From Rhynochetos jubatus (taxonomy: Eukaryota > Chordata > Aves > Eurypygiformes > Rhynochetidae): DNA of 64,000 nucleotides. Under the pieces are notes generated by a model. The model worked only from the letters and a program-made list of their open reading frames with translations, did no database searches and was not told the DNA's origin. Below are positions 2,815-49,110 of this stretch, piece by piece; the first letter of the stretch is position 1; every line of letters starts with the position of its first letter. The DNA lies in contig CM050665.1 in assembly GCA_027574665.1 (NCBI GenBank), forward strand, positions 868,001-932,000, in the 5' to 3' direction. A program made the translations under genes and the position numbers.

Positions 2815-5800
2815 ATGCTGCAGGGCCTGGGGCTGGTGGGCACCATCGCGGAGGGGGACGCGGGGCCCGGGGACCCCGAGTCTGGCAGCTCCGAGGATGA
2901 GGAGGTGGGCCCGGGCCGGGCGGGTGCGGGGCCGCGTTTGATCGGGCCGGGGCCGAGGCCGGCGCGGCCCGGTTCGACCGACGCGGTCGGTGCTCACTGG
3001 TGTCCCCGCAGGAGCTGGGCCGGGCGCCGGGCCGCCGGCGGCGGGGCCCCACGGGCGGCGACTTCAGCGCCGCCTTCGTGTTCGGCGAGACGGAGGCTGG
3101 CGGGGAAGGTGCCTGGGCGGCCGCGCTGCGGCAGCTCCGCGGGAAGGTGAGGCCGGGGCTGGAGCCGGGCCCGGGCTGGGCCCGCAGTGCCCGGAGGCTG
3201 CAGCACCCCACGGTCTCCCGGGCGCCTCTTACAGCTCCTCTTGTGTCTTCCTGCCTAGAGAGCAGCTACGACCCTGGATGAGAAGATTGAGAAAGTGAGA
3301 CAGAAAAGGAAATCCCAGGTTCGGAACCTTCTCTCGTTACTGCAGACACGGGTGGGGGTTTGGCCTTGCGCCGCGTTCCCCCCGGAGGCACAGGCCGTGT
3401 CTGCAGCCACACCTGGTGCGCTGCTGAACCGCGGAGGGGCGGAACTGTTAGTGCCAAAGGTCATTTACACCGTCTGTGAATGGGCTCACAAAGGACTGAA
3501 GTTCCGTTTATCCTTTCTTCATGACACTTTTTTTTTTTAATCTTTTTCTAGGAAAGAGAAGCTAAACAAGCGAAGGCAGGAGATGAAGATGATGAGACCG
3601 AGGATCATCAAACCGAAAAAAGGGAGTGTGAAGATTTTGGTAGAGAAGAAGAAGAAGATGTGGAGTCTCAGTGTTCACTGGATGATGAAACGATCTTCAC
3701 AAAAGCTGGTATTAGCAGTGTGCAGGCGGTGGGGGCCGGAATCTGACAGACTGCAGGCTCACCGTAAAGCCGTGCTGGCAGGGGGCGAGAACCTCTTGGG
3801 GTTTGTTGTTTTCTTTGTGGTTCTGGTTGAGCTGATTTTGAGTGGTTGCCGTAGTCCTTTAAGTGAACTTGTCCCTGAGGAATGCTGTTTGCTTGGCATT
3901 TTACTACCTCCCGTGCCTGCACTTGTTCTTCTTCAGTAACTCATTCAGGGCAAAAAGTAGGAGATGACAGCAGCCATCGCATCTCGCGCGTTTAGCTGTG
4001 CTTAGTCGTTCCTGCCACGTGTCTTTCTCTGCAGATACAGTCAGAGTGAAGGGACGGAGGAGACCGAAAAAGGGAGAACTGGTAAGTGTTGGACAGAACG
4101 ACACTGGATCATTTTCCAGCATTTCTTCTGGAGAAATTTGACTTAATTAAGAAACTGTAGCTCAAAAACCAGCTGAGAGCCCTTCGATAACATGCCTTGC
4201 TGCCAGTGTTGTTCCAGTTTTGTTGTTGTTGCTGTTTGTAGGAAGCAGAGAGCTTTTTTGAAGATGCCTCTCAGTATGATGATAACTTGTCATTCCAGGA
4301 CATGAATCTTTCACGACCTTTGCTGAAGGTATTTACCTGGCTTAATTACTACAGAGGTTGCTCTGAAGAGTGCTGTACAGCCTCCCTTCCACCCGTCACA
4401 ATTGTCAAATTCCCATTCTCCTTGCAGCCTCTCTTAAAAGGAAATTATGTGGGAGGTAGTATGGTAGTCCTTTAGGAGCTGCTATTCCCAAATAATGGAA
4501 ACCATTCTTTGATTTGCAATTTGTCAACACCATCTCAAGTGAGACTTGTGAGAGCATCACAGAATGGCTGAGGCCGGACGGGGAGGCTGGAGGTCATCCC
4601 GTCTGACCCCCTGCTCAAGCAGGACCACCTAGAGCTGGTTGCGCAGGAGCACATCCAGGCAGATTTTGAGTATCTCCAGGGATGGAGACTCCAGCCTCTC
4701 TGGGCAGCCTGTGCCAGTGCTCGGTCACCCCCACAGTGAAAAGTGTTTCCTGTGTTCAGAGGGAACGTCCTGTGTCTCAGGTTGTTCCTGGTGCCTCCGG
4801 TCCCGTCTCTGGGCACCACTGGAAAGAGCCCGGCTTTGTGCTCGTTCCACCCTCCCTTCACGTATTTAGATACATGGAGAAGATCCTCCCCAGGTCTTCT
4901 CCGGGCTGACCCGTCCCAGCTCCGTCGGCCTTTCCTCGCGCGTGCGGTGCTCCTGGCCCCTGTGACTCTCCAGTGTGTCCGTGTCTCGTCCTGGGGAGCC
5001 CAGCACTGGGCACTCCAGGGGTGGCCTCAGCAGGGACCGAGTTTAATCGCTCTGTCTCCTTTGCAGGCAATCACAGCTCTGGGCTTCAAGCAACCAACTC
5101 CCATTCAGAAGGCTTGTATCCCGATTGGTCTTCTGGGGAAGGATATTTGTGCCTGTGCTGCCACTGGGACAGGTAGGGGGTTGGGCAGGGCACAGGCAAT
5201 GTGGTGACAGAGCCGCTCGCAGTAAGGGGTCATTCTTAGTAATCCTTTTTTTGTTGTCTTCAGGTAAAACAGCTGCCTTCATCCTGCCTGTCCTCGAGCG
5301 CCTGATTTACAAACCTCGTCAGGCTCCAATAACACGGGTGTTGGTTCTAGTGCCAACACGAGAACTGGGTATTCAGGTGCACGCTGTCACCAAACAGCTG
5401 GCGCAGTTCAGCGCTGTCACGACTTGCCTCGCTGTGGGTGAGTAGGAAGTTGCTTATGTGAACTGTACAGCTCACTGTGAACAGCTGGGAACTGGGTTAC
5501 GAACTGGGAACTGGGTTATGAGCTGGATCATCGCTGTAAACAGCTGCAACTGTGGGCTATGAGCTGGGGGCTGTATGGTTACTGCTCCTAGGAAGTTGCT
5601 GCTTTCCAGTACCGTGCTGTGCTTTTTTTTGATTTTGGAGAAAGAAACGAGTGGTGGGGTCACTAATTACGGATGTGGCATCAGTCTGAGTTGTTTCCCG
5701 TTCCTCAGGCGATGTGGATCTGTGCACTCTGCTGCAACTGGCTCAGGGAGTTAGCAGTCCCTGCTTGCTCTCTTTCAGGTGGCCTAGATGTGAAGACTCA

Positions 5801-8800
5801 GGAAGCAGCTCTGCGCTCTGGGCCTGACATTCTGATCGCCACACCTGGGCGACTCATTGACCATCTCCACAACTGCCCTTCTTTCCACCTGAGCAGTGTG
5901 GAGGTGCTGATTTTGGATGAAGCAGACAGGTAGGCTGCAGGACAGCAGTGAAGACAGAGATGGTCGTTCTCTGCTTCCCTCTTCCCAGGCCGTGGGGCCG
6001 TCTGTTGCCCTGCTGTAAGTAACGTTGCCTAGCTAGAACCGGGTGGAGCTGCCTTACGTGGCTGCTTTGCTCCTGTGTAGGATGCTGGATGAATACTTTG
6101 AGGAACAGATGAAGGAGATAATCAGGTTGTGTTCCAACCACCGTCAGACAATGCTGTTCTCTGCCACCATGACCGAGGAGGTAAGACAGGCTGCGGGGAA
6201 GCACACTGAGGCAGACGGCCGAGCAGAAGTTTGTCTACTCTTTGACCACAGCCAATGTGGAATTTTTTCTCTTACCCTGTTTTTGTAGGTGAAAGATTTG
6301 GCTTCCGTTTCCCTGAAAAATCCCGTCCGCATTTTTGTGAACAGCAACACAGATGTTGCCCCTTTCCTGCGGCAGGAATTTATCCGGATCAGACCCAACC
6401 GAGAGGGGGACCGTGAGGCCATTGTAGCAGGTTAGTGATGAGTTAAGACAAGCTGTAATTGGCAGGTGGCCATGAAGCAGGCTCCTGACAGGACTTTCTT
6501 TCAGCCCTGCTGACACGAACCTTCCCAGACCACGTGATGCTCTTCACCCAGACCAAGAAGCAGGCCCATCGGATGCACATCCTGCTTGGGCTGATGGGTC
6601 TGCGCGCTGGGGAGCTTCACGGGAACCTCTCTCAGGCACAGCGGCTGGAAGCGCTCAGGTATTAGCAGGCTTAGTTGGCAGTCACAGACAAAACAGGAGG
6701 TGGGAGTTGGCAGTGTTAGGGCAGAAGGGGTTTGCTGCGTTCATTGCTCACGCATTGCTGTCCCTGCTCAGGCGCTTTAAGGACGAGCAGATTGATGTTC
6801 TGGTAGCTACAGACGTGGCTGCACGTGGACTCGATATTGAAGGTGTTAAAACAGTGAGTATTTGCAGTGCTGAGCTTTTTCCCGAGCCCTGCACTGCTGT
6901 TTCCCTGCTGACACTGTCTTGCAGGTGATCAACTTTACCATGCCCAACACCACCAAACACTACGTTCACCGAGTGGGGCGGACAGCAAGAGCAGGCAGGG
7001 CTGGGCGCTCGGTTTCACTTGTGGGGGAGGAAGAGCGCAAGATGCTGAAGGATATCGTGAAGAGTGCCAAGACACCTGTGAAAGCCAGAATTCTCCCCCA
7101 GGGTATGCACCTCGCTGGGGTGAAAAGCAGGAGGGCAGCGGGCAGGGAATATCGTGGCACGGATGGACACTGAGAGGTGCTGGAAACAAGATGGGCTTTA
7201 CATGAGCCGCCTTGGGTGGTCACACTTGTTTCCAGATGTCATACTGAAATTTCGAGAGAAGATTGAGAATCTAGAGAAAGATGTGTACGCGGTTCTGTGC
7301 TTGGAGCGCGAGGAGCGCGAGATGCAGCAGTCAGAGGCTCAGGTAAGGGTTTTTCTTGGGGTTTTTAACATTAGTTTTTTAGGATCTGGAGTAGATACAG
7401 TGCACAGGGCAGTTACCCTGATGGACTTCACCTGCCTACTTTAGAAAGGGAAGAGAGATTTCTTTAGCCACCATGAGCTTACTTCTTGTCTGAATTATCT
7501 CAGATCAACAGGGCAAAGAAGCAGCTGGAGACAGGAAAACAGGAGACTGGGGGTGAGGGTTTGGAGCGGAGCTGGTTCCAGACCCGTGAGGAGAGGAAGA
7601 AAGAGAAATGTGAGTCGTGACACTGGTACCGTGGCAAACTCCATCGCTGCTGTGGACTTTACAGGACTCTTTACTCTCTCTTCCCAGTGGCTAAAGCCCT
7701 GCAGGAGTTCGACCTTGCACTACGGGGCAAGAAGAAAAGGAAAAAGTTCATGCAGGACAGACAGAAGAGCGCCCAAATGACAGTGAGTCCAGCTGTGGGA
7801 GCCTGGGTGGGCTGGCCTGGTCTTCCCTCAGCAAAACCTCCCATCACCATCACCTGCATTTTAACCCCTTCCAGCCAGAGGAGAGGTCACAGTTTGAAAT
7901 CCTGAAGTCTCAAATGTACGCCGAGCGGCTGGCAAAAAGGAATCGCCGAGCAAAGCGAGCCAGAGCTGTGCCGGAAGAGGAACCGGCAGTGGTACCAGCA
8001 GGTGGAGACTTGCGTTACCTTTGCTCCGCACTGTCCTGGGAAGGAGTGGCTGTCAGGGCTGGCCAGCGCAGAGCCGTCGCTGCTTTTCCCGGCAGCTGGG
8101 CTACTTGTGGCCAAGGCTCCGGGGCTGTTAAGCAAGACGACGCTGCGGCCTTCTCTGCGCAGGCACTGTGACTCTTGTCTCTCTGTTTAGGCCCCAAGCG
8201 GAAGAAAAAACTGTCGGTGTTTGACGAGGAGCTTACCAACACGAGCAGGAGGGCGCTGAAGCAGTACCGTGCCGGGTAACGCGCGTCAGGGCAGCATTCC
8301 TGCAGGGGTTGTTTTGTGTGTCTCTGGGCTTTGTCAGGGATACTTTGACCGATACTGGGGGAGGGGATTCTGGCAGGATCTACCTGTGCTATTGCTGTAC
8401 TTCGGCGGGTTTTGTCTTACTTCCCCCCTTCCCCTCTCTCAAAAAGCCCATCATTTGAAGATCGAAAACGCTTGGGTATGGCCCAGCACAGGAAAGGAGG
8501 AAACTTCAAATCCAAGTCCAGGTAGAGCTCCCTTTACTTTCTTACTCAAGTGTGTGTGTTCGGGTTTTTCCTGCTTTCTCTTTCCTCCAGTGGTTGTTTA
8601 AAGGCCCCTGCTAAAACGTTTGTGGTTCTGCAGTGGCTTACCCCCTGCAGGTCCTTGCTGGGACCGAGCAAGGATGCTGCCTTTAACAGCACGTTCCTAG
8701 GCCTCTGCGGGCGAAGGTGCTGCCTGGAACACGCTTGGCGCTGCCCTTACCCATCCCTGAGTTGGGCTGACGGAACGTCATTTTGTGTATCTGCTTCTTC

Positions 8801-33600: not shown

Positions 33601-34470
33601 AGCAGCTTCTCCTGCTGGGTTGGCAGGCAGAAGGTGCTGGGATGTTACCTTCGGTCAATGAGATTCTTTTCCATCCAGGAAGTGCTAGAATTGGCCTTCT
33701 CGATATTATACGATCCTGATGAGACCTTGAACTTCATTGCACCTAATAAATACGAGGTAAGAAACATGGCACTTGAGCAGTAGAATATAAAGCAATTGAC
33801 TTCAGAGCTTTTAGAAGGATCAGTTGCTTCTCATTAAAGGCTTGAGCAGGATGTCTCCCGCCAGGTTCATTCTTAGAAAATGCTGCTGATGCTTAGTGCG
33901 GATCTATTTTGGTTGTTATCACCTTTCTCTTAGATAAACTAACCTGCAGTAACTTCCCCTAGTTGGGCCTGCTGCTTCCTTCCCGCCTGCGCAGTCAGTC
34001 ACGCCCTGTTCCCCATTCCCTAAGACGCTGATGCGCAAATGGCTTTGCTTTTCCTGCTCTTACAGCACAACAGAAACTCTTGGCCCTCTCGCGGAGCCGT
34101 GGGGTGACGCTCGGGCTCCTCTGGGCTCCTCGCTTACCCCGGAACACGGGGTGCCGGGTCGGGGTTTGGCCGTAGGGGATGTTTCCCGTTGTGGGGCTGT
34201 GTAGGGGCTCTCGTTGCACGGATGGGAAGATCCCTGGCGCGGAGCTGTGAATGATCGTTTTTCCCGCAGTACTGTATCTGGATCGACGGGCTCAATGCCC
34301 TCCTGGGGAAGGACATGTGCAGCGAGCTGACCAAGAGTGACCTGGACACCCTGCTGAGCATGGAAATGAAGCTGAGGCTCCTGGACCTGGAGAACATCCA
34401 GATCCCCGAGGCGCCGCCCCCCATCCCCAAGGAGCCGAGCAGCTACGACTTCGTGTACCACTACGGCTGA
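18688..34470 (+). CDS. ELMO2: ELMO2, engulfment and cell motility protein
   Basis: Cytoplasmic adaptor that binds DOCK1/2-type exchange factors and activates Rac1 in phagocytosis and migration. Coding exons: 18688-18765, 18901-18941, 19414-19486, 19799-19849, 20751-20932, 23221-23320, 23528-23679, 25705-25783, [26378-26413], 29215-29265, 29573-29695, 30287-30421, 30849-30953, 31026-31134, 31756-31892, 32216-32379, 32462-32574, 32873-32980, 33320-33402, 33679-33756, 34270-34470. Phases agree, giving 732 codons with the bracketed microexon and 720 without, the human length. Order: Ras-binding/ARM-like N-terminus ([16 protein letters not shown]...), ELMO domain (~320-495), PH domain with C-terminal helices (~565-690), and a Pro-rich DOCK-SH3-binding tail ([13 protein letters not shown]) ending [12 protein letters not shown]1 and ELMO3 are excluded by near-identity to remembered ELMO2. 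No canonical poly(A) signal follows the stop. Confidence 0.96.
22117..22780 (+). mobile_element. Avian LTR-type interspersed repeat in ELMO2 intron
   Basis: Begins ggttaacctcgcccagctg and runs through ggacagggggagaaaacggg, gaggagaaagcttgtaggttg, and a series of ctgctccagagtgggctccc / acctgctcctgcgtgg-like units. This arrangement matches my memory of a common avian ERV-related LTR-type repeat that starts near TGTTGTGGTTTAACCCC. Diverged, with no coding capacity. The family name is uncertain. A related copy lies at 45804-46330. Confidence 0.55.
24792..24885. repeat. 43-bp tandem duplication in ELMO2 intron
   Basis: Unit gcctggaaaggagggg... starts at 24792 and 24835, with a partial third start at 24878, giving a 43-bp period and about 2.2 copies that differ at only one or two bases. 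It looks recent. No function is apparent. Confidence 0.9.
26378..26413 (+). other. ELMO2: ELMO2 36-nt cassette microexon
   Basis: Between the exons ending ...EDKRQ (25783) and starting EMANAF (29215) lies a 36-nt in-frame segment encoding [12 protein letters not shown]. It is flanked by a long polypyrimidine tract, a tandem CAGCAG acceptor (AG at 26373-26374 and 26376-26377) and a perfect gtaagt donor at 26414. Skipping or including it keeps the frame and gives 720 or 732 residues. The insertion falls after residue 252, in the helical N-terminal region. It is called because of frame, splice strength and the remembered existence of a longer ELMO2 isoform. The upstream acceptor would add one Gln. 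Confidence 0.8.
27260..27648 (+). mobile_element. CR1 LINE 3' fragment, sense, in ELMO2 intron
   Basis: Sense-strand CR1 with the landmarks cagcctggagaagagaaggc, ctcagtggtgcccactgac, aggcaatgggcacagctt, tacccggagagactgtgga, aaaacctgcctggacacag and the tail gattctgtgattcc. Diverged and 5'-truncated. Confidence 0.88.
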
Positions 34471-34473
34471 GGG

Positions 34474-34492
34474 CCCCCCCCCCCCCCCCCCC
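34474..34492. repeat. Poly(C) run of 19 directly after the ELMO2 stop
   Basis: A stretch of 19 C follows TGA-GGG, only 3 bases after the stop codon. Such runs are mutable and are also typical places for sequencing or assembly error, so the apparent absence of an ordinary ELMO2 3' UTR here should be treated with caution. Confidence 0.95.
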
Positions 34493-35300
34493 GGCGCCGC
34501 CGCTTGTACCGGTCACAATAACAACCAGTGCCGCTCCCCTGGCTGCGCCTCCTTCCGCCGGGCCCCGCCCCGCCCGGCGCGTCACGGCGCGGGCCCCGCC
34601 CGCCGTCTCCCTCCACGGCGCCCCCGGCCCCGCCGCCCCGGCCCGGCCTCCCCGCAGCCCCCCCCGGCCCAGCGGTGCCCCGGCGCTGGCGCCGCTCCAC
34701 CGCGGCTTCTCACTCGGCGCCACCTCCGGGCGGCTCCCGCGGGGGCGGCTGTCGGTGCCGCAGAGCTGCCCCTTCCCGCTGCTCCCGCGCTGCCGCTCCG
34801 CGTCTCCTGGGCCGCTGCCTCCGCCGGCCGCTGCCGCAGGTACGGGCGGGCAGGGCCGGGCGGGCAGGGCCGGGCGGGTGCTCGGTGCTGGCCGGGCCCC
34901 CTGGGACCCGTCGGGGCCGCGCTGCCGCGGGGAGCCCCCGTGTCCGGCGCGAGGGCGGTCCCTGCGTTCCCTCGCCGGGGTCGGGGTCTCGTCAGGCTTC
35001 GGACGCGCCCTCGTTACCGGCCAGAACAAGCACCGGGCGGGCACGAGGGCGGCCAGCGGGAGGCTCGTGGGGCAGCCGCCCGCCCGCCGCGGGGTCGCGT
35101 TTCGCCGGAGCGGCAGAGCCCGGCGTTGGCGCTGTTGCGGAGGTTCTCTGCGTGCGGTTTGGCCCTTGTGACGGGGCCGGGGCCGCACGGGGCCCAGAAG
35201 GCGGCTCCATCAGCCCTTTGGCTGTGCCCCGTGTTGGTTCCATCGCTGGCTCCCGGCGAGCTTTGGCCATTCCCACGTGCCGTGATGTGCCGCGCGGCTT
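34493..35300 (+). promoter_or_regulatory. CpG island, probable promoter and untranslated exon of the gene after ELMO2
   Basis: Very GC- and CpG-rich sequence just after ELMO2. A good donor, gccgcag|gtacgg, at 34839/34840 would close an untranslated first exon. In human, SLC35C2 starts immediately downstream of ELMO2 in the same orientation, so this island is most simply the SLC35C2 promoter, even though the coding exons downstream look decayed. It may equally serve ELMO2 termination or a long 5' exon of a more distant gene. Confidence 0.55.
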
Positions 35301-35786
35301 CTCCAAAACTCTCCCTCCGCACGTGTAGCAGCCGTGCTGCAGCGCAGGTGACCCCTCCTGCGGGGGGGTCTTTCCTACAGGGGGAGCAGGCGGTACCGGA
35401 GCCGTGTGCCGAAGGGGGAAGAGGCACTACCGGAGCTGCCCCGGGACTGCCCGCCTGCTGGAGGTTGCTGCCGGGCCGGCTCTTTGCAGTGCTCCTCGCG
35501 CAGTTGCTGATGTGTTAACGGGCTTTGGGCGGGTCTGGGGTCCCTTCCCCGTCCAGGGGCTGCAGGCGTTGCTGCGGTTTCGCATAGCACGTTCAGCACG
35601 CGGGGCTGAGCCCCCGGGGGGCACGGGGCCACGGGGCAGGAATGCGAGGAGCTGCGTCGGTACCGCAGGGTTAACCCGCGGGACGCGCGCGGGGCTGTGG
35701 GGGTGCCCTGCTCGTGGCCACGCAGCCCGATGTTGTGGGGGTTTATGTAGCGGAAGACAGTTAACGTCGGGATATTTCCTTCGGCT

Positions 35787-38390
35787 CTTCAGCGCTGTCG
35801 GCTTCCTTGGACGTTGGGCTGAGCACCGGGAGCCCTGCGCCTCTGTCTCGCTGCGAGTACGAACGCCCTCTTTCCCTGGGAGCCCTGCGCTAGGGCTGAG
35901 AAAGCGCTGGCCCGGGAGGTTTCCTGAGCGCGGGGCTCGGGCAGCTCGGTTGGAGCAGGTGGTTGGTTCCTGACTGCGCTTGGCTGGGAAGGACTGCGAC
36001 GGAGGAGACCGGCCGTGTATTTTGGTCCTTGCGTGTATTTTGGTCCTTGCAGCTACACGGTGACCAAACCCTCTGCTATTCCCGCATCCTGCCTCTTTCG
36101 CCACTCCTCAGGCTGGAGGGAGCGGTAAGGGCCGCCGGCGGTGCGTCAGAGAGGGGGGTCAAGCCCCTGTAAGTAGAGGAGGAACGGGGTTACCAGGGTG
36201 AAGCTGAAAGGGAGGAGGGGTCTGTTCAACTCCAGGGCTCCATCATGACCTTGTGTTGGCTCCCGCCCGGAGCCCAGCCTCACTGCTGGCGGTTCTGCTC
36301 CCCGCGGGGGCTCTCCATGGCCCCCCACGCAGTCCAGCGCGGGGCTCTGCACCGCTCTCCGGGGCGTATCCGTTGGGCTCGCGCAGGTGGCTGATGTGGG
36401 TGCGTAGGGTGGTAGGGAGGGGGTGCTGGTGCGGGGAGGGGACTCCGGAGGCGGCACCTCTTGCTGCAGAAACAGAACGCCTTGTGCAGGAGACCCTGGA
36501 ACCTGGGGCAGGGTTATTGGGCGGTGGGTGATGGAGGTGGCTTGGCCCCTGCAGCAGCCCGGGCATTACAGATAAGGGGTGTGCCTGGAAACGGTACCGA
36601 TAAAGGCTTCAGGAGCAGTGTTATTCCCGGGCTTGTTGCTGCCTGGCCTGTTACTGCTTCTCCTCTCTCAGGGCTCCAGAACCCCACTGATACCCTGCTT
36701 CATCTGCAGCTGCTCACATTCCCAGGGCTCTTCCCACTCTTTGCGTTGTTTGAGGGTGCGTGAGCTAATTGGGGAAAGCAGGGAGAGCTTTATAGGGTGG
36801 CTGGGGAGATCGCTCAGCGGTTGGTGGTTTGAGGTGGTTCTTTTAGGTAAGTGAACAGCTACGAACTTGGTAAAGTAGCGAGACCTGGAGTTGGGAGGAC
36901 CCAGATGTAACTTGGGCGGACAGAACGTTAAAGCGTGCGTAGGAGTTGTAGCCTGCCACGCTTGTGGAAGTCGGGGCTGTGAAGAGCTGGGTCCCCATCC
37001 TCCTGGTACCAGAGTGTGAGCAGCCCACCCCCATCTTGTGCAGGGTCCTGGGAGTTGGGAATGGTACCCTGCCATGCGTGCCTTGTTCCTAGGCCTGCTT
37101 TGTCCATGCCAGAGGAGCTCCTCCATTTCCATGAAGCAGGAATGCTCTTTGCTCCAGTAGGAAAGCTGTTCTTGGGTGGAATTCTTGCCTTTGGTCTAGG
37201 CTTTTCCAAGTTCCTCTTGGTTTCCAGAACATCTCGCCTCACCCTTCCCATAGCTGGCATCTTTGCGGGAAGGCACGGTTCCCGTGCTAATACGGGAGGG
37301 CAAGTACCGAGTCATCCCTGATGGGCCTCATGCGGTGGGAGCGTCCTTAGCGCCTTAGAAACCATCTCCTGCGGTTTTCGTCCTTCTCGGAAAGGCACGT
37401 GGCGCTTTGCCTGGCAGCCGCTGCGGTGAAGTACCCGGGGCCCTGGCAGCAAGGGGCAGAGACTGGAGGCCGTTCTGTAAAGAGCACTGTGGCCCAAAGT
37501 TGTTTGGGGTCTGGGATAGACTGAAACACGCGGGCCTCAGGAGCGATGGGAGGAGGGGTAAGAAGAGGATGCTCTTGCCTCAGACCTGGATGTGATCAAA
37601 GCGCTGGTTTGGGCCTTCTCGTTCGCCACATCCTTCCCTCCCTGAAGGAACCCAGCACACACACTTCTGCGCTGAGCGCTGACACGTGTGATCTGGTCAC
37701 AGCGCTCCCGTGTAGCCAAGCTGTGCAGACTTAAACCCCCACACCCCAGTTCAACGGGTCGTTCTGTGCCTAGAGCTCTTCTCTGCAGCGTGGTAGATGC
37801 TCCTGCACAGTCTTACCGGCAGAGTGACTGGATTTGGGAATCCCGGGAGGGAATGCTCTGAAGGTTTCTGAATGACGCTTCCCATGCTCTCCGTTCCACC
37901 TTTATCTTTTCATTCCACCCAGTGGATGGCGCTTAAGAGCTTGAGGGGCAGGGACTCTGGGTCAGGACTTTAAATGATGATGTGCTTTAGAACAGTTAAA
38001 ATGTCCACGCGTTTTGCTGGGGGTTTTGTTTATTCCTGAGGATTTTTTCCCTATGATTTTCATAAGAAAGGAGGGAGAACATTCCCTGACAGCCTGATCT
38101 CCCTGTTCTGGATTGAAAGAACGAAAGGCAGCAGCTCGATCCCTCTATTTCTGGGTGCTTTAGCTGTAGTGGGTGATGTTTGCCGATGGGTGGTGTTGGC
38201 TACCAGGGTAATTGCTGGAGGTGGCGATGAGTTCAGTAGGCGATGCTCAGGAAGAACGCGGAAAGGATGGAGAGGAGCCTGCATCCAACACCTTATGAGG
38301 GGTTTCTTGGGTCGTAGCAGGTAGCACATGAGGAACCAGCAGCGAAGAGCTGCTCCTGCGGAACTGGCTGAGATACAGAATTTGGAATTG
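35787..38390 (+). pseudogene. SLC35C2: SLC35C2 remnant: decayed, unprocessed, exon order kept
   Basis: SLC35C2 is a ten-helix Golgi/ERGIC nucleotide-sugar-transporter-family protein that promotes Notch fucosylation. Segments alignable to remembered human SLC35C2 occur in order. 35792-35824: ALSASLDVGLS. 36053-36130: YTVTKPSA, then in another frame RILPLSPLLRLEG. 36362-36376: GRIRW. 36672-36755: [18 protein letters not shown] then LFPLFALFE, with both splice sites kept. 37093-37265: [12 protein letters not shown] then [20 protein letters not shown]. 37923-37973: MALKSLRGRDSG, then a stop. 38335-38364: TSSEELLLRN. Introns survive, so this is not a retrocopy. Defects: a frame change inside the 36053 segment, a phase clash between 36755 and 37093 (the conserved frame is off by one), no donor after IAGIF at ~37260, and the start-codon exon and the exon expected after IAGIF not found. 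A functional copy elsewhere, or local assembly errors, remain possible. Confidence 0.72.
36014..36049. repeat. 18-bp perfect tandem duplication at an SLC35C2 remnant acceptor
   Basis: cgtgtattttggtccttg occurs twice back to back (36014-36031 and 36032-36049), directly before the AG at 36051-36052 of the exon remnant beginning YTVTK. It doubles the pyrimidine tract and looks like a recent slippage event. Confidence 0.95.
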
Positions 38391-41300
38391 GCCTATCCAG
38401 AGGATGGTTGGACTTGTAACTGTTCTGTTTGGGCAATCTGGGCACAGGTATCCTGATGGGGAACCTGAGCAAGTTACACTTTCCTGCAGACCTGTGGGAG
38501 ATTAATTTAACCCACACATGGCTTTTTGGCTGCTTTGAAATTCCTTTGTTGTCTGTTCATGGTGGAACTGCGGCTCCCGTTCAGATGAAATGGCATATTG
38601 ATTAATCACACTCGCTGGGGTAGCGTGTTCCCGCGGGCCAAAGCTCCAGAGTGTTAGAATCGTAAGGTCTGGATCCAGTCAGGGTTGCTGAAATAAGGTG
38701 GGAAGGGGCAGCTGTTTCACAGCATCTGCAGGACTCATTTGGAAACTACTGCATGGTAATTCAGAGAGAAGGCACAAGCCCCTGGATGGGCACAATTGGA
38801 AAATCCAATTTCTTCTTGAGCTCTGGTAGCTTTGGGAGTCTTCAAGTCACCTTGCACATGATTTAGCCACCAAATCTCGGTTCCTTGAGCTCCTGCTTGA
38901 ACAGCTGGTTGTACGGCCAGCCAAGGTCCGTCTGTGTACTAGCCTGGAGTTGGGTCTTGGTGAGGTGAAGGCTCATGGGCTGCAAAGAGGTGGGAATAGA
39001 CAGTGCTCACCCATCAGCACCTCACTTGACAAGTGACGGGCTGAAAAACCAGGTGCCCAGCCGTGCATTGAAGACATGGTCTTGCCCTTTGGTTGAAGAG
39101 GGGATCTTCTTGGAGTTTCCCTGGGAACCTTGCAGCTTGACCAATTTTGAGGGTTTGCTGAGGTCTGCTGCAGCTGGGGGTTCCTTTAGCATCTGCGTGT
39201 GAGCGTGTGTGAGCAACTGTCCTGATGTGAATCGCTCGCTTTAGCCTGGAGCATTCCTGCTGAGCTCCGTGTGTGCCTACCACGCTGCTGCCAGGCACTC
39301 CCAGCCACTTGCGGGGCAGCTCTGGAGCTGCAGTTCAAGATGGAAACGCGCCTCCTTCAGTGGAGTTTCAGAGCTCCAGCTCAGAAGTTGGCATTTACAA
39401 CCAGTGTAGTGTTGGGCCTGGCTGGGGTCTCCAAGCAAGCAGTGCGCAGCTCGGTGTATGTCTTCCTCTTCCTGCCGTTAACTGACCAAACAGTCTAATC
39501 GGTTGTTGAGTGCTTGGTGTTGCCTGGGAAACACAGATGGAAAATGAAAGGATCCTATCGTTCGGGGGTTTATCTGGCTTTTGTAGTATGCAAAAAGTGC
39601 AGGTGAGAGTCTGCACTTCCAGGGCAGGGAGCAGCCTGCGTGTTCCCCGCGCCCCTGTGCCATCATCACTGGTCTTGGTCCAAGTCCTGCTCGTTCGCTG
39701 TAGTTCACCCGCGTCCCCTGTGTCTGCCCTCACCCTGGGCTTCACTTCCTGGGTGAGCCGAGTGCCCGCAGTCTGTTACGTGCTCTGTGGTTGGTGCCGG
39801 GGGAGCGGGGAGCCCAGGGTGCAGATGGCCGGGAGGCTGGTTCCCGCCCAGGCTGGGGCTGTAAAGGGCTCACCTTCATCTGCAGCCTTTGCAGTGGTAG
39901 ATCAATTGCCCCAAACTCTGTATCCTGCTTCTGCACTGCAGCTCTTGTTTTTCATCACTGGGGTGTGTGGGTGGTGATCCCAGCCTTGGCTCTCCAGTCC
40001 CAGGAGCCCTAGTCTGCATCCCGCTCTTGGAAACGGCTTGCTTTTCTGGAGTCATGCTAACCTAAGAGGTTCTGTGTCCTGCGGCTGCCTGGGGTCACCT
40101 TTTGGGGGGTGAACGGTTTGGTGTTGCTTTAGGAAAGGGGGGGCAGCCAAAACTGGGCTGTGCCTGGGATGCAGGAGAGGTGTTGCTTGTGGTGGTGTTT
40201 CCTGCAGCTCCGTGAGGAGTGTGCTCTTCCAACAGGACAGGTAGCGGTGCTACTCACCTCCCTGCTCACACACCCTGCTCTGGGAGCCGGGATGCGTGAA
40301 TGCCTGCCTGGGCCCTTGTTGCCAGCCTGGCCTCCCCCGGGAGCAGGCTGAACCTTGCCAGGAGCAGAGGCTGCTGCCAGGCCCTGGCTGCTTGCCCAGT
40401 GACAAGTGGCAGAATTGACCATGGGATTGTTAATGCAAATCACCAGCAGGAGGATGCAGCCAAGCCCTGTAATTGTGCTAATTGAAGCCATCGTCATGAA
40501 CATGCTAAGAACCACTGTCCTGGTCTCTGCTGAGTTACTCTCCTGATTTTGTGCCTCGGCGCCTCCCGCCCAAGGCTGACCCACCTGCTGGGTGAGCACC
40601 GTTCCGTGTGCTGTGTCCTTTGTCCCGTGGAGCTGCTGCCTTGTCTCTAGAGGTTGGAGCCTTCAGTGGAACTCCCCAGGGAGAGCGAGGTGGAGCTGAT
40701 GCCAGGTTTGGAGACCGTGTTCTGCACAGCACTTTGCTTGCAGCCTTGAATTGTCCCTCTGTTTCGGGAAATGCATCAGTCTTGGCCAAGCAGGAGCTTC
40801 CTGAACTCTGGAAGCACAAGAGTGGGGCAGCGAGTGTTCAGCTGTCCCGGATGGCAGGGTTCATCTTCCATGGCAGGGTGGAGGGCGTGAGGCGGCAGAG
40901 CGGATGGCACCTCTCGAGTGTGCCCCAGTGCCGTGTTCCCTGTCTACACTTGGCCTGACTGCAGGCCCCAGGCTCCTTTAACAAAGTTAAGGAGCTCTTT
41001 CACACCCAGTGCTTTTTCTCTGTGAAGGGCTTATAATCAAACCACCTCTCAGGCTCCCTTTTTGGTGAGATAACAGAGTGAACTCTCTCATTCTGCTCCC
41101 AGCGAGTGTTTTCTCCAGCCTCCAAATCACATTTGTAATTATTCTGTGCATCCTCCAGTTTTTCAGAATCCTCTTAGGGGTGTGGGCACCATCTCCGACT
41201 TGCAGCAGGGTGCAGGGGGAGCCCTGCCAGCCTGCTCCCACTCACTGCTCTCCCTCCATGTCTCCGAGTTCACTGCCAGCACATCCCCTCCTGAAGTAAA

Positions 41301-41605
41301 GAGTAAGGGTGCTCTGTGTGGAGCAGAAAGGACCCTGGTGTGGTCCCGTGAAAGACTGATTTCCCCTCTACTTAATGCTGGCCCAGGGAGGTCAGCCCTC
41401 CTGCTGGCACCCACTGAGGTTCTCCCAAGGCACGCTCCTTCCAGTCACGTGTGTTGTCCTCTCCCCATAGTTGCCATCTTCCCACTGCCACAGAAAGGTA
41501 GACAAAGGGGAGCTTGGAGAAGAAAGGGGGGGAGAGGCAGCTGGCTGAGGAGGGTGGAGAAACCAGGCACAGAAAGCAAGGAATGGGAGAGGTTAGGGAT
41601 CACAG
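38391..41605. other. Noncoding stretch with one homeobox/POU-rich island
   Basis: No exon recognised. A conspicuous AT-rich block at about 40405-40515 contains a perfect POU octamer ATGCAAAT (40433-40440) and two TAATTG-type homeodomain cores (40470-40487). It resembles a conserved noncoding element; conservation itself cannot be seen from one sequence. The rest shows nothing I can name. Confidence 0.45.
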
Positions 41606-42082
41606 TCACAGAATGGCTGAGGCCAGACGGGGAGGCTGGAGGTCATCCCGTCTGACCCCCTGCTCAAGCAGGACCACCTAGAGCTGGTTGCGCAGGAGCA
41701 CATCCAGGCGGATTTTGAGTATCTCCAGGGATGGAGACTCCAGCCTCTCTGGGCAGCCTGTGCCAGTGCTCGGTCACCCCCACAGTGAAAAGTGTTTCCT
41801 GTGTTCAGAGGGAACGTCCTGTGTCTCAGGTTGTTCCCGGTGCCTCCGGTCCCGTCTCTGGGCACCACTGGAAAGAGCCCGGCTTTGTGCTCGTTCCACC
41901 CTCCCTTCACGTATTTAGATACATGGAGAAGATCCTCCCCAGGTCTTCTCCGGGCTGACCCGTCCCAGCTCCGTCGGCCTTTCCTCGCGCGTGCGGTGCT
42001 CCTGGCCCCTGTGACTCTCCAGTGTGTCCGTGTCTCGTCCTGGGGAGCCCAGCACTGGGCACTCCAGGGGTGGCCTCAGCAG
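41606..42082 (-). mobile_element. CR1 LINE 3' fragment (copy B)
   Basis: Same 477-bp antisense CR1 segment as at 4557-5033, with identical end points and, by direct base-by-base reading, only three substitutions. Flanking sequences differ on both sides. The near identity marks it as a young insertion or a product of duplication or conversion. Confidence 0.85.
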
Positions 42083-45000
42083 CGCTGGGCAGAGGGGCAG
42101 GACCCTGCTCGGCTGCTGGCGATGCTTCATCGAACACAGCCCGGATGCCGTTGCCCTGGGCAGCGAGGGCAGGTGGTGTGGGGGTGCAGCCGGGGGATGC
42201 AGGGCAGGATGTGCCCTGTCTGACATTGCTGGGGGTGGGCTGGGGCGCAGCGCTGTCCTGCAGGACCCACGCTGGCATGGGCAGCCCAACCATCCCATCC
42301 CGTGCTGTCCAGCCCAGCGGAGCTGGGCAAGCGCTCTGTCTGTCGGAGCTGCTCGCGTCAGTGGGCCGTGATCGGCGCCTCTGCGAAGCGCCGGGGGTCA
42401 GTTACTGCTGGACGCAGCTCGGGCTCCAGCGCTGGGAGGTGACCGGGGAGGAGCGGTGCTGCCCGCGTTTGCTCTCGGTCTTTCTGCCAGGTGCTCCTCT
42501 TCCCCCAGGGATGAAGCACTTCTTGCGTTCTTGCTTGTGCCTTGAATCTGCAAAACCACAAGCGAGGGCTGCGTGGGAAGCATGCCGGAGGCCGCTCCGG
42601 AGCACATGGAGCACAGGTGCTCCTCACATGGGTGGTTCTTACAGAAGCCTCCACTACAAACCCTACCCCGACTGGTGTGTAGCGGGTTTGGGGGTTGGTC
42701 TCTGTAGATGGTAGCGCTCCCCCAGCCCCGTGCACCAACGGTCCAGGGAGCTTTCCCAGACGCTCCCCTCAGCTGGAAATCTCTGCCCCCAACCACACCA
42801 GCTCTGCCCCGTGCGCGGGGCCCAGCCCCCTTCTGCTGCCTCTCAGCGTTTCTGAGCCCATCGGTTACAGCACCGTTAACGCGCACCGGGAATTGTTCCC
42901 TGTGGCTCAGAGCCCAGCGATTTCCATCTGTGCAGGGGGTGATGAATGGACGGTTGTGGTTGGCGCTGGAGCCGTGCGGAGAACGGGAGAGCTCTGGCTC
43001 CCCACATCGGAGTAGATCCATAGTGCTCCCTCCTGCCAACATTGCCCCAGAGACAGCAGCTGTCTGGGGCTCCCCATTCCAGCAGAATTCCCAGTTTCAT
43101 TACAGCAGGGTCCAGGGATGGGTCCGGAGGAGCCAAGTCAGAACGTTGCGGCTTTGTTCCTGCACCATGGGGAGAGTCTCGTGTCTGGGAGTGAGTGGGA
43201 ACTGGTGTGTGGGATGCCCAGGCAATGGGTTGTGCTACAGAACAGGGCTGGGAGTCTCGGTCCTTCAGCTGCCTGAGGGGCTGATTCGAGTGGTGGGAGG
43301 AGCCCTGGCATCAGGGAATGGGGATAAATGGAGATCCAGCACAGAGCAGGGGCAGTGGAAGGAGGAAGAGGGCTGGGCTTGGGTGGTGGAAACCAGGGCT
43401 GGCCACAGGCATCTGGGGAAAGGCTGTGCTGGCCTCCAGGGAATGCTGTAGTTCAGGGGCATCCCAGTGGTGGGCGACGTCCTGCTTGGTGCTGGAAGCC
43501 GGGTGGCTCTTGGAACAGAGCCATTGTCACTAGCGTCCAAGAGTGCAGGCACCAACCACCCCTGGGGAGGCTGGCCCTGAGCAGGCCCAGCACGTGGGGG
43601 GACACAGCCCCTCGGTGACGGTGGCCACTGCCCAGTGCAGCACCAGGGACAGGGACATTATTTACTGCTGCTCCGTGTGTTTCTGTGCCGGTTGGTCCCT
43701 CGTCACCAGCGTTCCCTGTGTTGCATCTGTGCTGCTTCTGCTTTTTGTCTCCCCAGTAACCTGGAGGCAAAGAGTGCACCTGCACCACAGGCCTTAAACT
43801 GGAGATGGGGGGCGCAGGGGGCACAGCTGTCGCTGCGTGGGTTTGCCTCCGCCTTTCCCTGTGTGCCTGTGGCCGTGCCAGTAGTTCTGAGTCAGTCCTG
43901 CGGCGCTTGGGTTGTGTGATGGGTTTAACCCTGGACGCGAGCTTCGCCGCACGACTTGAGCCCACAGTTCAGTCTGAGTCCGGCCTTGAGCAACGATACA
44001 TTCCTGCTCTGGGCTGCTCTGCCTGCACTGCTGATGCCGTTCAGTTTTCCTCCTCTTCCCTGTCTCTTCAGGCTGTGGGGGGCCCCCAGGTGTGTTTTGT
44101 GGTGGGGCACAGTGCAGCGGCCGTTGCCCTGCCCGGGTGCTCCAGGGCTCATGTCAGTGGCAGGAGTAGGCACAGAAGGAGTTAAACAGTGCTGGGAAAA
44201 TTGGTATTTAATCCATTGCTGTCCCTTCCAGCAAACCTGGACAGGAAAATGCCTCCCTGTTGGAAACAGCGCCTCTTGGAAATGGAAATGCAGGATGGCT
44301 GGGGATTAGGGTGCCTATCACTGGAAATGGATTTCTTATCGTCTCTTTGAGCTGAATTGGTGGGACAGGCTCTGAAAATTGAATTGCCTTCCCTGTTTGT
44401 GTCTCTGCCATCGCATTGCTCCTGTGCTCGAGCGTTGTACCCACCTTCCCAGCCTCCGGCCCCCTGTCCCCACCCTCAGAGCAGGGGCTGCCTCTGAGGG
44501 GAGGGTACGTATGTACAGAGGGACTGGCCCAGCTGAAGGTGGGCAGGACTGGCTGCATCTGGGAAGATTCTCAAGGCAAGGAGGATGTAGTCCCTCTTTC
44601 CAGGCTTCCTTTGGACCTCGCAGGGACAGCCTGGCAGAGCCTGGTGTAGGGCAGCGTGTGCGAAGGCGTGAAAGGGTCAGAAGGCATCAGGCACCACTGG
44701 AAATGAGAGCTGGTGATGAGGAGCTGGGGGAGGCAGAGGAGAGACCAGGCTGAGCACGTCAGAGCAGCGATGAGTCTGCGAGACGAGGAGCAGCCTGTGC
44801 CCCGTGGAGCCATCTCTGCCCCGTCAGTGCTTAGGCTCTGTCCCGGGATGGCCAAGGTGGCTCTCGGTTCCTTCTCCCAGGCTCTGCTCATGGTCTGAAA
44901 CATCCCATGCCACAGGCGCTGGCCCCGGGTGTCCCTGCAGAGCCTGGGGGTTCACCAGGTCCAGGGTGGGATAGGCTGATGCAGATCCCAGGGCTGTGGG

Positions 45001-45803
45001 TGTCCAGGCATAGTGACAGGAATTTCTTTGTAGGGTTTTGTTCCCAGGGTTTGGTTTGGGGATAATTCTGTTGTACTGGACTGTATTTTACCGTAGGTTG
45101 CTAGTGCCTGATTTCATGTCTCTGTCCTGGTATGGTTTTCTGGGGCATCTCCCCTCCCTGTCAGTTCCGTGTGGCTGTGAGTGCAAGGTGCTGCTGCCCA
45201 CGCAAAGGACTGTTCACTGCACCCGCCAGGAGCCACGGTGCTGCTCCGGCACAGAGCTGCTGGCCTCGACCCTGGGTCTGCCAGAACACACTGAGTCAGA
45301 AAACAAAACATACTTAGGGCTACTTGGGAAGGATTTTTGCTGCTTGTGCAGAGCTGCCACCTGTGGTCACTGGGACTCTCAGAACGGCCCCTCCGTGCTG
45401 AGCCAGAACACGTGAATTGCTAGCCATCGGGGCAAAGCCGTAGCCAGGGGCCTGGTTCCTCTGGCGACAGCAGGCTGCGCTCCGGTCGCAGAGGCTTGCT
45501 GTCAGCCTGCGAAAGAGCCCGCCCTTCTGCCAGGGTGCTGTCCTTGCCCTCTGCCAAAGGACTCGCTCACATTGCTGACACCCAACGGGACAAGGGTTTC
45601 CTTCACTCAGGCGAGTGGTTCCTGACGTGCTGAGGGGCAACTGCAGCTGGGTCTGGCCGTGCCAGGGGGTGGGCAGCCTTCAGGTCTGCGGGAAGGGGAA
45701 TCGCGGGCAAAGCGTTAGGCTGGTTGAGGACCCCGTTAAAGAGCTCTGACCCCCGCAGCATCCACACTTGCCTGGGAGGACACACTGGTTGGTTGTGCCC
45801 GAC
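42083..45803. other. GC-rich noncoding stretch
   Basis: Contains several long open frames (for example 42708-43451) that have no recognisable domains, no consistent splice context and no family resemblance, and that overlap open frames on the other strand. Read as composition effects. No RNA gene or clear repeat was recognised. Confidence 0.5.
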
Positions 45804-46330
45804 TGTTGTGGTTTAGGCCCAAACAAAGCACCTCACAGCCGCTCACTCGCTCCTCCGCACGCTGGGACCGGGAGGAGAAAAGCCAAGGGAGGGCTGGTGG
45901 GTTGAGACGAGGACGGGGAGGGATCACTCACCGGTTGTGGGCACGGGCAAACAGACTCGTCTTGGGGTAAAAAATCAATTAGTCACCAATCAAATCAGAG
46001 TGGGATAATGAGAGATAAAACCAGATCTTAAAACCTCTTCCCCCCACCCTCACTTCTTCCCGGGCTCAGCTTTGCTCCCCATCTCCCTCCCTCCTCCTCA
46101 GGGGTGTTGGGGGACTCCCCACATGCTGCTGCTGCTCCAGTGTGGGTCTGTCCCACAGGAGACGGTCCTCCACGAGCTCCTCCGATGTCAGTCCTTCCCA
46201 CGGGCTGCAGTTCCCCATGAACTGCTCCGGCAGGGGTCCCTCCCATGGGGTGCCGCCCTTCAGGAGCAGCCTGTTCCCCATGGGGGAAGGGGGTTGTTTC
46301 TCCAGCTCACGGTCCAGGGCTGAGTTCCGT
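45804..46330 (+). mobile_element. Avian LTR-type interspersed repeat
   Basis: Starts with tgttgtggtttaggccc and continues with agccgctcactcgctcctcc, gggctggtgggttgagacgag, a run of tcaattagtcaccaatcaaa type, then ccttcccacgggctgcagtt, catgaactgctccggcaggg and similar units. It belongs to the same family as the repeat at 22117-22780 and begins with TG like an LTR. No internal retroviral genes are seen. The family name is uncertain. Confidence 0.6.
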
Positions 46331-46494
46331 AGTGTCCAGGTCCGCCTGCAGACTGGCACTGGAGCGGCCCTGGGGGGGCCAGCACAGCTGCCCCGGGTTA
46401 CCCCTTGCTGCGCGGAGCCCGTGGGTCACCCAGCTGGGTCTGGCCTGGCGCTCTGCCCTGTGGGGCCATCACATCCCGGGGTGTGGCCACGTGT

Positions 46495-46690
46495 TCAACA
46501 GTTTATCCGAAGCAACTTCTATTTCGTTTTGGGCTAAAACTGATAAATCAAGGTGACTTTGGGGGGAGAAATAATTCCTTTCGCAGGATTTGCATAATCC
46601 TGGCTGGTGATATGATAATGGTGTTTGTTAAAGACAGAACACAATGAATTAATACTGCGAAGTTGCTGCTGCAAAATGCAAAGCAGGTGA
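46495..46690. other. AT-rich island, candidate conserved noncoding element
   Basis: About 200 bp of sharply lower GC than its surroundings. It contains aggatttgcataatcctgg (octamer-like ATTTGCAT), tgatatgataatgg and atgaattaatactg motifs. No open frame, no repeat signature. Enhancer-like by composition only. Confidence 0.35.
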
Positions 46691-47979
46691 TGTGCTGCAG
46701 GTGCAGGAGGAGCGCGGGGACGGCGGGCATGGTGGGGAGGGTGGGGACGTTGAGGACGGCGGCGGCAGCATCAGGCGCAGGGGGCTGTTGCCACAGGCAC
46801 AGCCAGGGTGTAGCACAGTGTCGGCAGCAGTCCCCATCCCGCTCTGCTGGGCTGTGGCTGGAGGCTGTGCCTGTCCAGGGCAGCGTTACCTGTTCCGTCC
46901 CTTGTCCGGGGGGTCAGGGGCTGCTTTGTCCCCCAGATTGTTCCAGAGAGCCAGCCACGCCGGACCAGAGCCTGCTGGAGGAGGGACAAGGGAGCTGGGG
47001 GTGACCTGCATCCCGCTGGTGCTGAAGGGTCCTCTGGGCACAGAGATGCCGTCGGGGCTCACAGGAAGCCCTGGCAGGGTGCTTCGTGCTCCCTTGGCCA
47101 ACCCCAGCAGCCCAGAGACCTCGATACCAGGCAGCCCCGTGAGAAGAGCCCTGTGGGAGGTAAGCCAGCCTGGAGCCCCAGCTCCAGCCCCAGTCCTCGG
47201 CTTCCATCTGGGGCAGCCGGGCTCAGCTGCGGGAATGGTGCCGTGGGATGAATGGGGAGGAAGAGTTGATATGAGGTAGAGGAGGGGAGAGAGGCTTGGG
47301 AAAGGTGCACCAGTGCCTCACCCATTCCCTGGGCTGGTGCTGCAGCTCCAGAGCCATCCTTGCCTGCCAGACCCCACTGGAATCCTAATGCACCGTTTAT
47401 CTCTGCAGCTCCGCAGCTTTATCGGAGGGAGATGCTGTGCGGGAGCCAGAGCAGGATTTCAGGCTAATTGGATTCTGTGTCTCTGTGGTTTCCCATGTAG
47501 GCAGACGACAGGGATTAGTGCGATGTTTCGGAGGAACAGGGAAGGCCAGGATGACCTGCATGGGGATTTCCTGCTGCGTAGCCCTTGCTGCCAGCGTCAG
47601 CAAAGGGTGTTTTTGGACAGGGTGTCGAGGTGGAGAGGCCCAGAGCAGCGTGTCCCCACACCATGGCAGCATCACTGTCCAAATCGCTTGGGCTCTTCCT
47701 AAATCTTTGAGATAGGTGCAGTGCCCTTCCCAGGGAAGGAGCCAGCTCAAACTCCTCCGGAGCCTGAGCAATCCTGACAATGGTCCGGCCTCTGCTGCTG
47801 GCTCCGTGTAAGGGCAAGCAGACAGAGGAATCAAGGAGCTGGTGGCTCCTGCACCCAGCCAGCTGCCCAGTTCGCTCCAGTCCTGGCGCAGGCCTGGCTG
47901 CTGCCTGGGAGCCGCGCACGTTTCCGCCTTCTCCCTTCCCCCAGGTTCCTTTCCTTGTGTTGGAGCCTGGCAGGGTGGG

Positions 47980-48052
47980 AGCAGGATCCACCTCATTAAC
48001 GCAGATTTATTCCTGTGTAAACATTTCATTCCTTTAATTGCAAAGCGGCCGT
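47980..48052. other. AT-rich island, candidate conserved noncoding element
   Basis: A short block with ctcattaacgcagattta, a forkhead-type TGTAAACA near 48016-48023 and tttaattgcaaag. It stands out from GC-rich flanks. No coding potential. Confidence 0.3.
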
Positions 48053-48924
48053 GCCGCAGGCGGCGGCGGCAACGCTCCGGTTGCAGCGGGTGTCGAGGCC
48101 ATGCGCCAGGTGTGAGCGTGGCACGTGGCTGTGACATGCCATGGTGTCTGCATGTCAGAGGATCAGCCCAGCTGGGCGCGGGGGCCCTGAGCACTGTGCA
48201 ATCCCGGCAGCTCCCGGCAGGGCCAGAGCATTGCCCAGAGGTGCCGAACAGTGGCAGCAAAACATGGAATGGGCCGTGTGCCAGCCGTCCCACTGCCCCG
48301 TGCCCGCACTGTGATGTGCACAGATGCAGTCACCTTGCTGTGCCCCCTGAAAGTTGCCAGGGTGCTGGGTGCCCAGTGTCCCTGCTGTGCCGAGGGGAAG
48401 CCCTTGGGCACCCAGATGGTGTCTTAGGGCAGCGAGAGAGAGGCAAGGTCTTCCCAGGGCCTCACGACCTCTCTGGGGCAGTGGGGTGTGCCTGGGGTCC
48501 CCACTTCATCTCCTGGCACAACAGCAGGTGTCTTGGGCGCACTGCTCTTGGAAAGCCATGTTCGCCAGGGCCTGCTGCCGTGCCAGGTTCGGCACAGACT
48601 GAGCCGTGCAGAAAGCTGGGGGTGGAGAGAGGTTCTGAGCCAAGCCGAGGGGAGATGCTCCCACCACTATGGCCAGGGAGTGATCTCCGGGGGGATCTGG
48701 CATGTGGCCTGTTCCCGCCCTTGTCACTTGCTCCCCACGGCACTGCTAGAATGCCACCATCTCCCAGAAGCTGCCTCGCAGCCCCGTCCTGGCCATAGAG
48801 CAGCTCCAGGTTCCCGCTCAGCCGGGCATCGGTGCAAGAGGATGCGCCCAGTCCAGGGCGTCTGCTGGGCTCAGAACGCGGGCAGCAGGTACTGCCAACC
48901 TGCTGCTGCGCTTCAGGTCTCTAT

Positions 48925-49110
48925 TCTCCCACACACTCATCCAAATGTTAATTTTATGGATGCCTTTATAAATCTCGCGGCTTTCCCCTGTCCATGGGCT
49001 ACATAGATTTCATCTTGTTGAGAGGTGACACTTCTGGCCTTTGGTACCAGGCTATCAATTTAATACTGAGAGTAATAAAAAACATGGGACCATATTAACT
49101 CACCATCACT
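48925..49110. other. AT-rich island, candidate conserved noncoding element
   Basis: Low-GC stretch with ccaaatgttaattttatgg, gcctttataaatc, ggctatcaatttaatactg and agtaataaaaaacatggg. No repeat signature or open frame. Regulatory role is inferred from composition alone. Confidence 0.3.

Follow-up and report, generated by a model that had tools for sequence, protein, structure and literature searches.

Our results suggest that SLC35C2, which encodes a putative GDP-fucose transporter, is very probably a unitary, unprocessed pseudogene in this neoavian bird, decayed at its ancestral place downstream of ELMO2. This reading, at which the initial annotation had also arrived, is drawn from the retention of introns and ancestral neighbours, from independent lesions, from a DDX27 gene that remains in frame and from the lack of any other SLC35C2 match when the assembled genome was searched with one SLC35C2 protein. 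In the window (the whole stretch of 64 kb that was analysed, C20:868,001-932,000), the SLC35C2 segments are collinear, contain introns and all lie on the + strand downstream of ELMO2. Both homology to a functional gene and disabling lesions were found, in one assembly. GULO in primates is an example of a vertebrate unitary pseudogene. As in those cases, a single-copy gene seems to have decayed in place with its introns, with functional orthologues in the relatives; SLC35C2 is no different in kind.

Eight bird and turtle SLC35C2 proteins, out of 120 listed, were used as tblastn queries on the window. All eight matched both at exon 6 (37,055-37,264; E 8.6e-23 to 9.8e-20) and at exon 5 (36,671-36,757; E 6.8e-9 to 3.9e-8), and the human protein did so with E values of 8e-17 and 7.6e-9, respectively, so that the homology to SLC35C2 noticed in the initial annotation is recovered for these two exons. 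At the DNA level, a nucleotide codon profile built from 12 bird SLC35C2 proteins was aligned exon by exon, with exon limits set by hand from splice motifs and background knowledge of the gene, without an annotated gene as a guide, and with 200 dinucleotide shuffles of a hand-chosen stretch per exon as the null. Exons 2 to 6, recognisable at 35,793-37,264, gave z scores of 7.4, 14.1, 10.8, 30.1 and 46.9, and none of the 200 shuffles equalled any of the five. In this comparison exon 4 reached 39.2 bits, against a shuffle maximum of 24.2. When exons 2 and 4 were realigned in other stretches, 0 of 500 shuffles equalled each. Exon 1 scored 29.0 bits, equalled by 1 of 200 shuffles (2, 0 and 7 of 500 for its three pieces). 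A protein-level alignment that allows frameshifts placed exons 2, 3, 5 and 6 above all 50 control chunks; exons 1, 4, 7 and 8 were equalled by 3, 10, 2 and 38 of the 50 controls. Thus, exons 1 and 4, which are not separable at the protein level, are recognised by their DNA-level codon profiles.

Exon edges were picked at AG or GT motifs near the ends of the alignments, and 9 of the 11 edges examined carry one. AG acceptors are present in all five of exons 2 to 6 and GT donors in four of six (exons 1, 3, 4 and 5), which agrees with the earlier remark that some splice sites are kept; the GT donor of exon 1 is, by reading, in a phase compatible with exon 2. These edges argue that the remnant is unprocessed. 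The spacing between exons 1 to 6 is 153-953 bases, mostly with splice sites, and this is not the structure of a retro (processed) pseudogene. In the SLC35C2 genes of other birds, such as Bucco capensis (P0124) and Grus americana (P0102), which belong to the TPT family (PF03151), exons 1 to 6 have the same order and ELMO2/DDX27 neighbourhood, and the remnant keeps splice sites at most of the exon edges; compared with them, the remnant has no start codon, frameshifts, lost donors, altered near-invariant residues and barely recognisable exons 7 and 8. Note that proteins P0171 and P0172 skip from a point between MLFSL and VGKLF of exon 6 to exon 7. An intron at this point was rejected, since the window reads through, and we infer that both proteins are isoforms using an internal alternative donor in exon 6.

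Table 1. Features of the SLC35C2 remnant and its surroundings (positions in the window)
Feature	Position	Strand	Observation
DDX27	2815..8522	+	exons in frame; sequence-quality control
Last ELMO2 coding exon	34270..34471	+	ends VYHYG-stop; open
Run of 19 C	34474..34492	+	directly past the ELMO2 stop codon; direct reading
CpG island at the former promoter and exon 1 of SLC35C2	34480..35860	.	GC 0.68-0.83; CpG o/e 0.85-0.95
Exon 1 remnant (AAPLVLLYYGFSIGIT, KSFPFPLL, RCRS..SWADCLRR)	34677..34839	+	donor GTACGG at 34,840; middle missing by reading
Exon 2 remnant (ALSASLDVGLSTGS)	35793..35852	+	acceptor CAG present; donor GC, not GT
Exon 3 remnant (YTVTKPSAI..)	36053..36124	+	1-nt deletion; acceptor CAG and donor GTAAGG present
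Exon 4 remnant	36278..36399	+	acceptor CAG and donor GTGCGT present; indels
Exon 5 remnant	36672..36755	+	indel-free; acceptor and donor present
Exon 6 remnant	37093..37264	+	indel-free; acceptor TAG present; donor lost (GCGGGA)
Interspersed repeat in the gap separating exons 6 and 7	41606..42082	+	99.4% identical over 477 bp to 4,557-5,033
Tentative exon 7 remnant	44362..44419	+	top exon 7 match when the two strands of the window are searched (29.7; runner-up 24.7)
Tentative exon 8 remnant (EKALKL..ETPQQH)	44662..44768	+	best exon 8 match (31.6); about 240 bases past exon 7

The lesions affect start, frame and splicing. No ATG is present across the exon 1 region (34,470-34,841), and the aligned part of exon 1 has 22 extra and 7 missing nucleotides; the start codon is therefore absent, as had been claimed, while the exon itself, given as missing, has left a remnant upstream of the interval to which the gene had been assigned. 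The deletion of one nucleotide in exon 3 shifts the frame, and this is the frame change earlier placed within one exon. Exon 4 carries six indels, namely gaps of 2, 8, 15, 1 and 2 nucleotides and one inserted nucleotide. The donor of exon 2 is GC for GT, and exon 6 proves to be the exon with the missing donor. Spliced together, exons 2 to 6 can be read for 23 codons before a stop that lies a little way into exon 3, and the remnant thus holds neither the start codon nor the continuous frame of a functional SLC35C2.

Lost constraint is also visible in exons 5 and 6. Their near-invariant columns (at least 99% conserved) were defined without the window and without three parrots, and 7 of these 36 are altered in the window. 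Among the 124 proteins scored on the same columns, 114 had no change, 7 had one, and the three parrots had 3, 3 and 4; the low counts of the remaining proteins are partly built in, since the columns were defined on them. In a leave-one-out comparison, 14 of 86 window residues were absent from every other non-parrot protein, compared with 0-2 in 112 of the 124 proteins; the highest counts of such never-seen residues elsewhere were 18 of 77 in P0082, 10 in P0203, 7 in P0014, 6 each in P0144, P0089 and P0030, and 5 each in P0167, P0110 and P0099. At a threshold of 97% (47 columns), the window had 9 altered, the bat entry P0082 10 of 43, the parrots 4-5 and P0014 3. P0082, P0014 and P0030, which are bat and pangolin entries, may hold mispredicted exons, and P0089 is an echidna entry. 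Note that the 256 nucleotides of exons 5 and 6 contain no indel; the rate in exons 1 to 4, whose aligned parts hold nine, would predict about 5.5 (Poisson P about 0.004). The GC-rich 5' part may have gained indels faster, as an effect of GC content, or the 3' part may have been kept coding for longer.

The 3' end of the gene is harder to follow. The initial annotation had described seven ordered segments and an early stop after a segment reading MALKSL (about 37,918). Their collinearity and + strand hold, and two of the claimed matches are not supported. In 37,265-38,600 the codon-profile alignment of exon 7 was no better than chance, with 60 of 200 shuffles equal, which leaves the MALKSL segment unsupported. 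The other is a match at 38,343-38,393, guessed from the end coordinate of the interval because no coordinates had been given for the seven segments; it scores 31.6, and the best on the opposite strand scores 31.5. Within 37,265-39,000 the best alignment of exon 8 lies at 37,849-37,946 (2 of 200 shuffles equal); it overlaps the start of MALKSL, aligned in another way, and scores lower than the site at 44.7 kb.

It had also been claimed that the exons for the C-terminal half are missing. Exon 7 is indeed undetected in 37,265-38,600; further downstream, tentative matches place exons 7 and 8 at 44.4-44.8 kb, on the same strand and in the correct order. The exon 7 match there was equalled by 0, 0, 1 and 0 of 100 shuffles of 37,265-50,000 under four settings. 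That of exon 8 was equalled by 0 of 100 in all four; it is rich in composition bias, which makes it weak when taken alone, and a minus-strand site near 39.3 kb scores 31.1 for this GAG-rich exon, against 31.6. A joint alignment of exons 7 and 8 was equalled by 1, 1, 6 and 1 of 100 shuffles, one setting ending at 37,946 instead, and because of this weakness both exons stay tentative. The best places at the protein level (36.7 kb for exon 7 and 35.1 kb for exon 8) were rejected as out of order. Between exons 6 and 7 lies an interspersed repeat with a second copy at 4,557-5,033, which we take to be CR1; given the near identity of its copies, recent activity of this repeat family in the bird is probable. 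Since this repeat is young, the gap between the two exons has probably grown by recent insertion. Tandem repeats are also present in the window: a minisatellite of about 3.5-3.9 copies of a 75-bp unit at 1139-1431, and an array of about 19 copies of a G-rich 23-bp unit at 60219-60652, in which periods of 45 and 91 also scored. The stretch 34.5-64 kb has 312 open frames of at least 60 aa, and in the 20 that were scanned Pfam found no domain. Rfam gave nothing over its gathering scores, and a sequence search of the PDB with human SLC35C2 gave no match at E 0.001.

The gene ending at about 34,470 we take to be ELMO2, as in the initial annotation. Its end is only about 200 bases from the exon 1 remnant, and neither AATAAA nor ATTAAA is present on the + strand from its stop codon to 49,074. 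The CpG island is still present, as had been noted, with GC content up to 0.83. Its observed/expected CpG ratio is 0.94-0.95 over 34.5-35.4 kb, and that of two further GC-rich stretches elsewhere in the window is 0.88 and 1.03. The island has retained its CpGs, as if it were still unmethylated, and since they are kept, a non-coding transcript may still begin there.

On the other side, DDX27, which looks intact, serves as a control of sequence quality. The closest matches to a stitched part of 547 aa come from two cranes and a penguin, at 97% identity, and no within-exon frameshift was seen in the DDX27 tblastn matches, about 28 kb from the remnant. In chicken, one marker on chromosome 20 is listed with ELMO2, SLC35C2 and DDX27 (PMC7810225). 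Furthermore, SLC35C2 and DDX27 entries report an equal longest contig in Pluvianellus (45,594), Halcyon (976,459) and Brachypteracias (319,982), so that SLC35C2 apparently lies on the DDX27 contig in at least three other birds. The remnant therefore sits at the orthologous position, as judged by DDX27, by ELMO2 as named in the initial annotation, by the chicken marker and by the contigs of the three birds. SLC35C2 is annotated in many birds, for example with 354 aa in the puffbird Bucco capensis (P0124), and the functionality of these orthologues is taken from annotation. In a tree of DDX27 made from the window and 70 of 120 listed proteins, hand-chosen for spread and with trogons, hornbills and hoopoes absent, the window was sister to Indicator, Dryobates, Semnornis, Eubucco and Tricholaema (0.859 in FastTree; 84 in UFBoot with 67 sequences); two rare Ser-to-Ala states are common to the window and to four and five of those five genera, respectively. 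By plain identity, Pluvianellus (0.955, 561 sites) and Aptenodytes (0.952) lead, and Indicator is 16th (0.932). The tree would set this bird beside the woodpeckers, honeyguides and barbets, probably on the piciform side but outside that group; if it belongs with the jacamars and puffbirds (Galbulidae and Bucconidae, sister to the remaining Piciformes), the loss does not extend to all of them, given the annotated gene of Bucco capensis.

We also searched the whole genome (1,331,379,947 bases in 148 contigs) with one SLC35C2 protein, that of Bucco capensis, exon by exon, and scored the best candidates in the assembled DNA. Among the seven matches, exon 6 (E 1.1e-19) and exon 5 (E 1.6e-5) are this remnant, the third is exon 2 of SLC35C1 (29%, E 0.02), and the other four have E >1. 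Thus, at the sensitivity of this one query, no second SLC35C2 and no functional copy elsewhere was found in the assembled genome. A search with the Pfam TPT model yielded 10 matches, which lie on contigs C31, C24, C1 and C21, and the remnant is not among them. SLC35C1 lies on contig C1, with both coding exons open and 68% and 79% identical to human SLC35C1; the loci on C24 and C21 matched neither SLC35C1 nor SLC35C2 at E 1e-3. Two further candidates were rejected: a stretch on C8 (L014) that aligns to residues 29-103 of the Bucco protein (35%, E 1e-4) was judged a chance match, and the loci on C31, which align over 34 residues (44%, E 1.8e-4), were judged another SLC35 gene. Several points count against the reading as a unitary pseudogene: the deficit of indels in exons 5 and 6, the weakness of exons 1 and 4 at the protein level, the miss by the TPT model, the outliers other than parrots in the conservation counts, the hand-set exon limits, and a genome search made exon by exon that scored the best candidates of the assembled DNA.

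Alternative explanations have to be weighed against this evidence. The remnant may have been exapted, either because the promoter of the island drives a transcript or because exons 5 and 6 are kept under selection as a short product. The CpG ratio of the island, similar to that of the two other GC-rich stretches, would fit, as would the AG and GT motifs at most exon edges and the indel-free state of exons 5 and 6; yet exon 6 lacks a donor and stays open for only 112 codons, and nearly a fifth of the near-invariant residues (7/36) are altered, so from its sequence we consider exaptation unlikely. It is less likely still that the ancestral gene is dead and a working copy, retaining the function, lies in DNA missing from the assembly, on a microchromosome or in a GC-rich part. 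Bird genes of high GC content are often absent from assemblies, and the assembly record gives no completeness value. However, the search of 1.33 Gb found the decayed exons 5 and 6 and nothing better, and at least three other birds seem to keep SLC35C2 on the contig of DDX27.

That SLC35C2 is intact and its lesions are errors of sequencing or assembly strikes us as highly improbable. Exons 1 to 4 do lie in GC-rich, error-prone DNA, exon 1 beside the run of 19 C, but such errors would have to account for seven near-invariant substitutions in the moderately GC-rich exons 5 and 6, for a lost donor and for the lack of a recognisable exon 7 within 1.3 kb, in an assembly where DDX27 and the final exon of ELMO2 can be read openly through their exons. 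Chance protein-like resemblance, with no relic of a gene behind it, is probably true of the MALKSL segment and of the matches near 38.3 kb; as an account of all the segments it can be virtually dismissed, given E values down to 1e-22, a strand and order that are correct, the splice sites found at most edges and the 0 of 200 shuffles for five exons.

If SLC35C2 is a unitary pseudogene, constraint on it would have lapsed, and substitutions, indels and losses of splice sites and of the start codon would then have accumulated. The supply of GDP-fucose to the Golgi would continue via SLC35C1 and any further vertebrate route, and with GDP-fucose supplied otherwise the loss would be tolerated. SLC35C1, the Golgi GDP-fucose transporter, belongs to the same transporter family and could carry the remaining function; unlike SLC35C2, it is open here. 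According to PMC10709068 (2023), work on cultured cells had reported that SLC35C2 promotes the fucosylation of Notch, yet Slc35c2-null mice are viable and fertile and gave no sign of a defect in Notch signalling. NOTCH1 is still fucosylated in Slc35c1/Slc35c2 double mutants. Since the null mice are viable, a large effect of the loss on Notch in this bird is unlikely, and the weight that the initial annotation put on Notch O-fucosylation is not sustained. Taken with the open SLC35C1, the results in mice make the loss in a bird plausible. The knockout mouse (PMC10709068) is likewise a vertebrate without SLC35C2; it differs in being engineered.

Finally, the parrots deserve attention. The SLC35C2 proteins of Amazona guildingii (P0144), Ara ararauna (P0167) and Amazona collaria (P0203) break 3-4 of the 36 near-invariant positions, compared with 0-1 in the other 121 proteins, and the Ara ararauna entry is labelled LOW QUALITY PROTEIN. 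These are signs of a possible second, independent loss. A parrot as the source of the window was rejected: the parrot changes SPTLS and VVSEG are absent from the window, and the DDX27 tree did not group it with the two parrots sampled. It is conceivable, and we hold it only tentatively and with the greater weight against it, that birds have dropped SLC35C2 at least twice, once in the lineage of this bird and once in parrots, where the loss would still be under way. A gene present from amphibians to mammals would then be repeatedly dispensable in birds.

In titles and opening abstracts, a literature search did not find SLC35C2 loss in a bird in print; the loss in this bird would be a new case of unitary pseudogenisation, a type of event that is familiar in itself, and its lesions could be used as markers of the lineage. 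This bird looks like a natural knockout of a gene that was formerly regarded as important for Notch signalling. A bird lineage that lives without SLC35C2 would add independent evidence for the sufficiency of SLC35C1 together with a still-unknown route. If the repeated loss is true, such birds would be natural tests of the role of SLC35C2 in Notch O-fucosylation in vivo.
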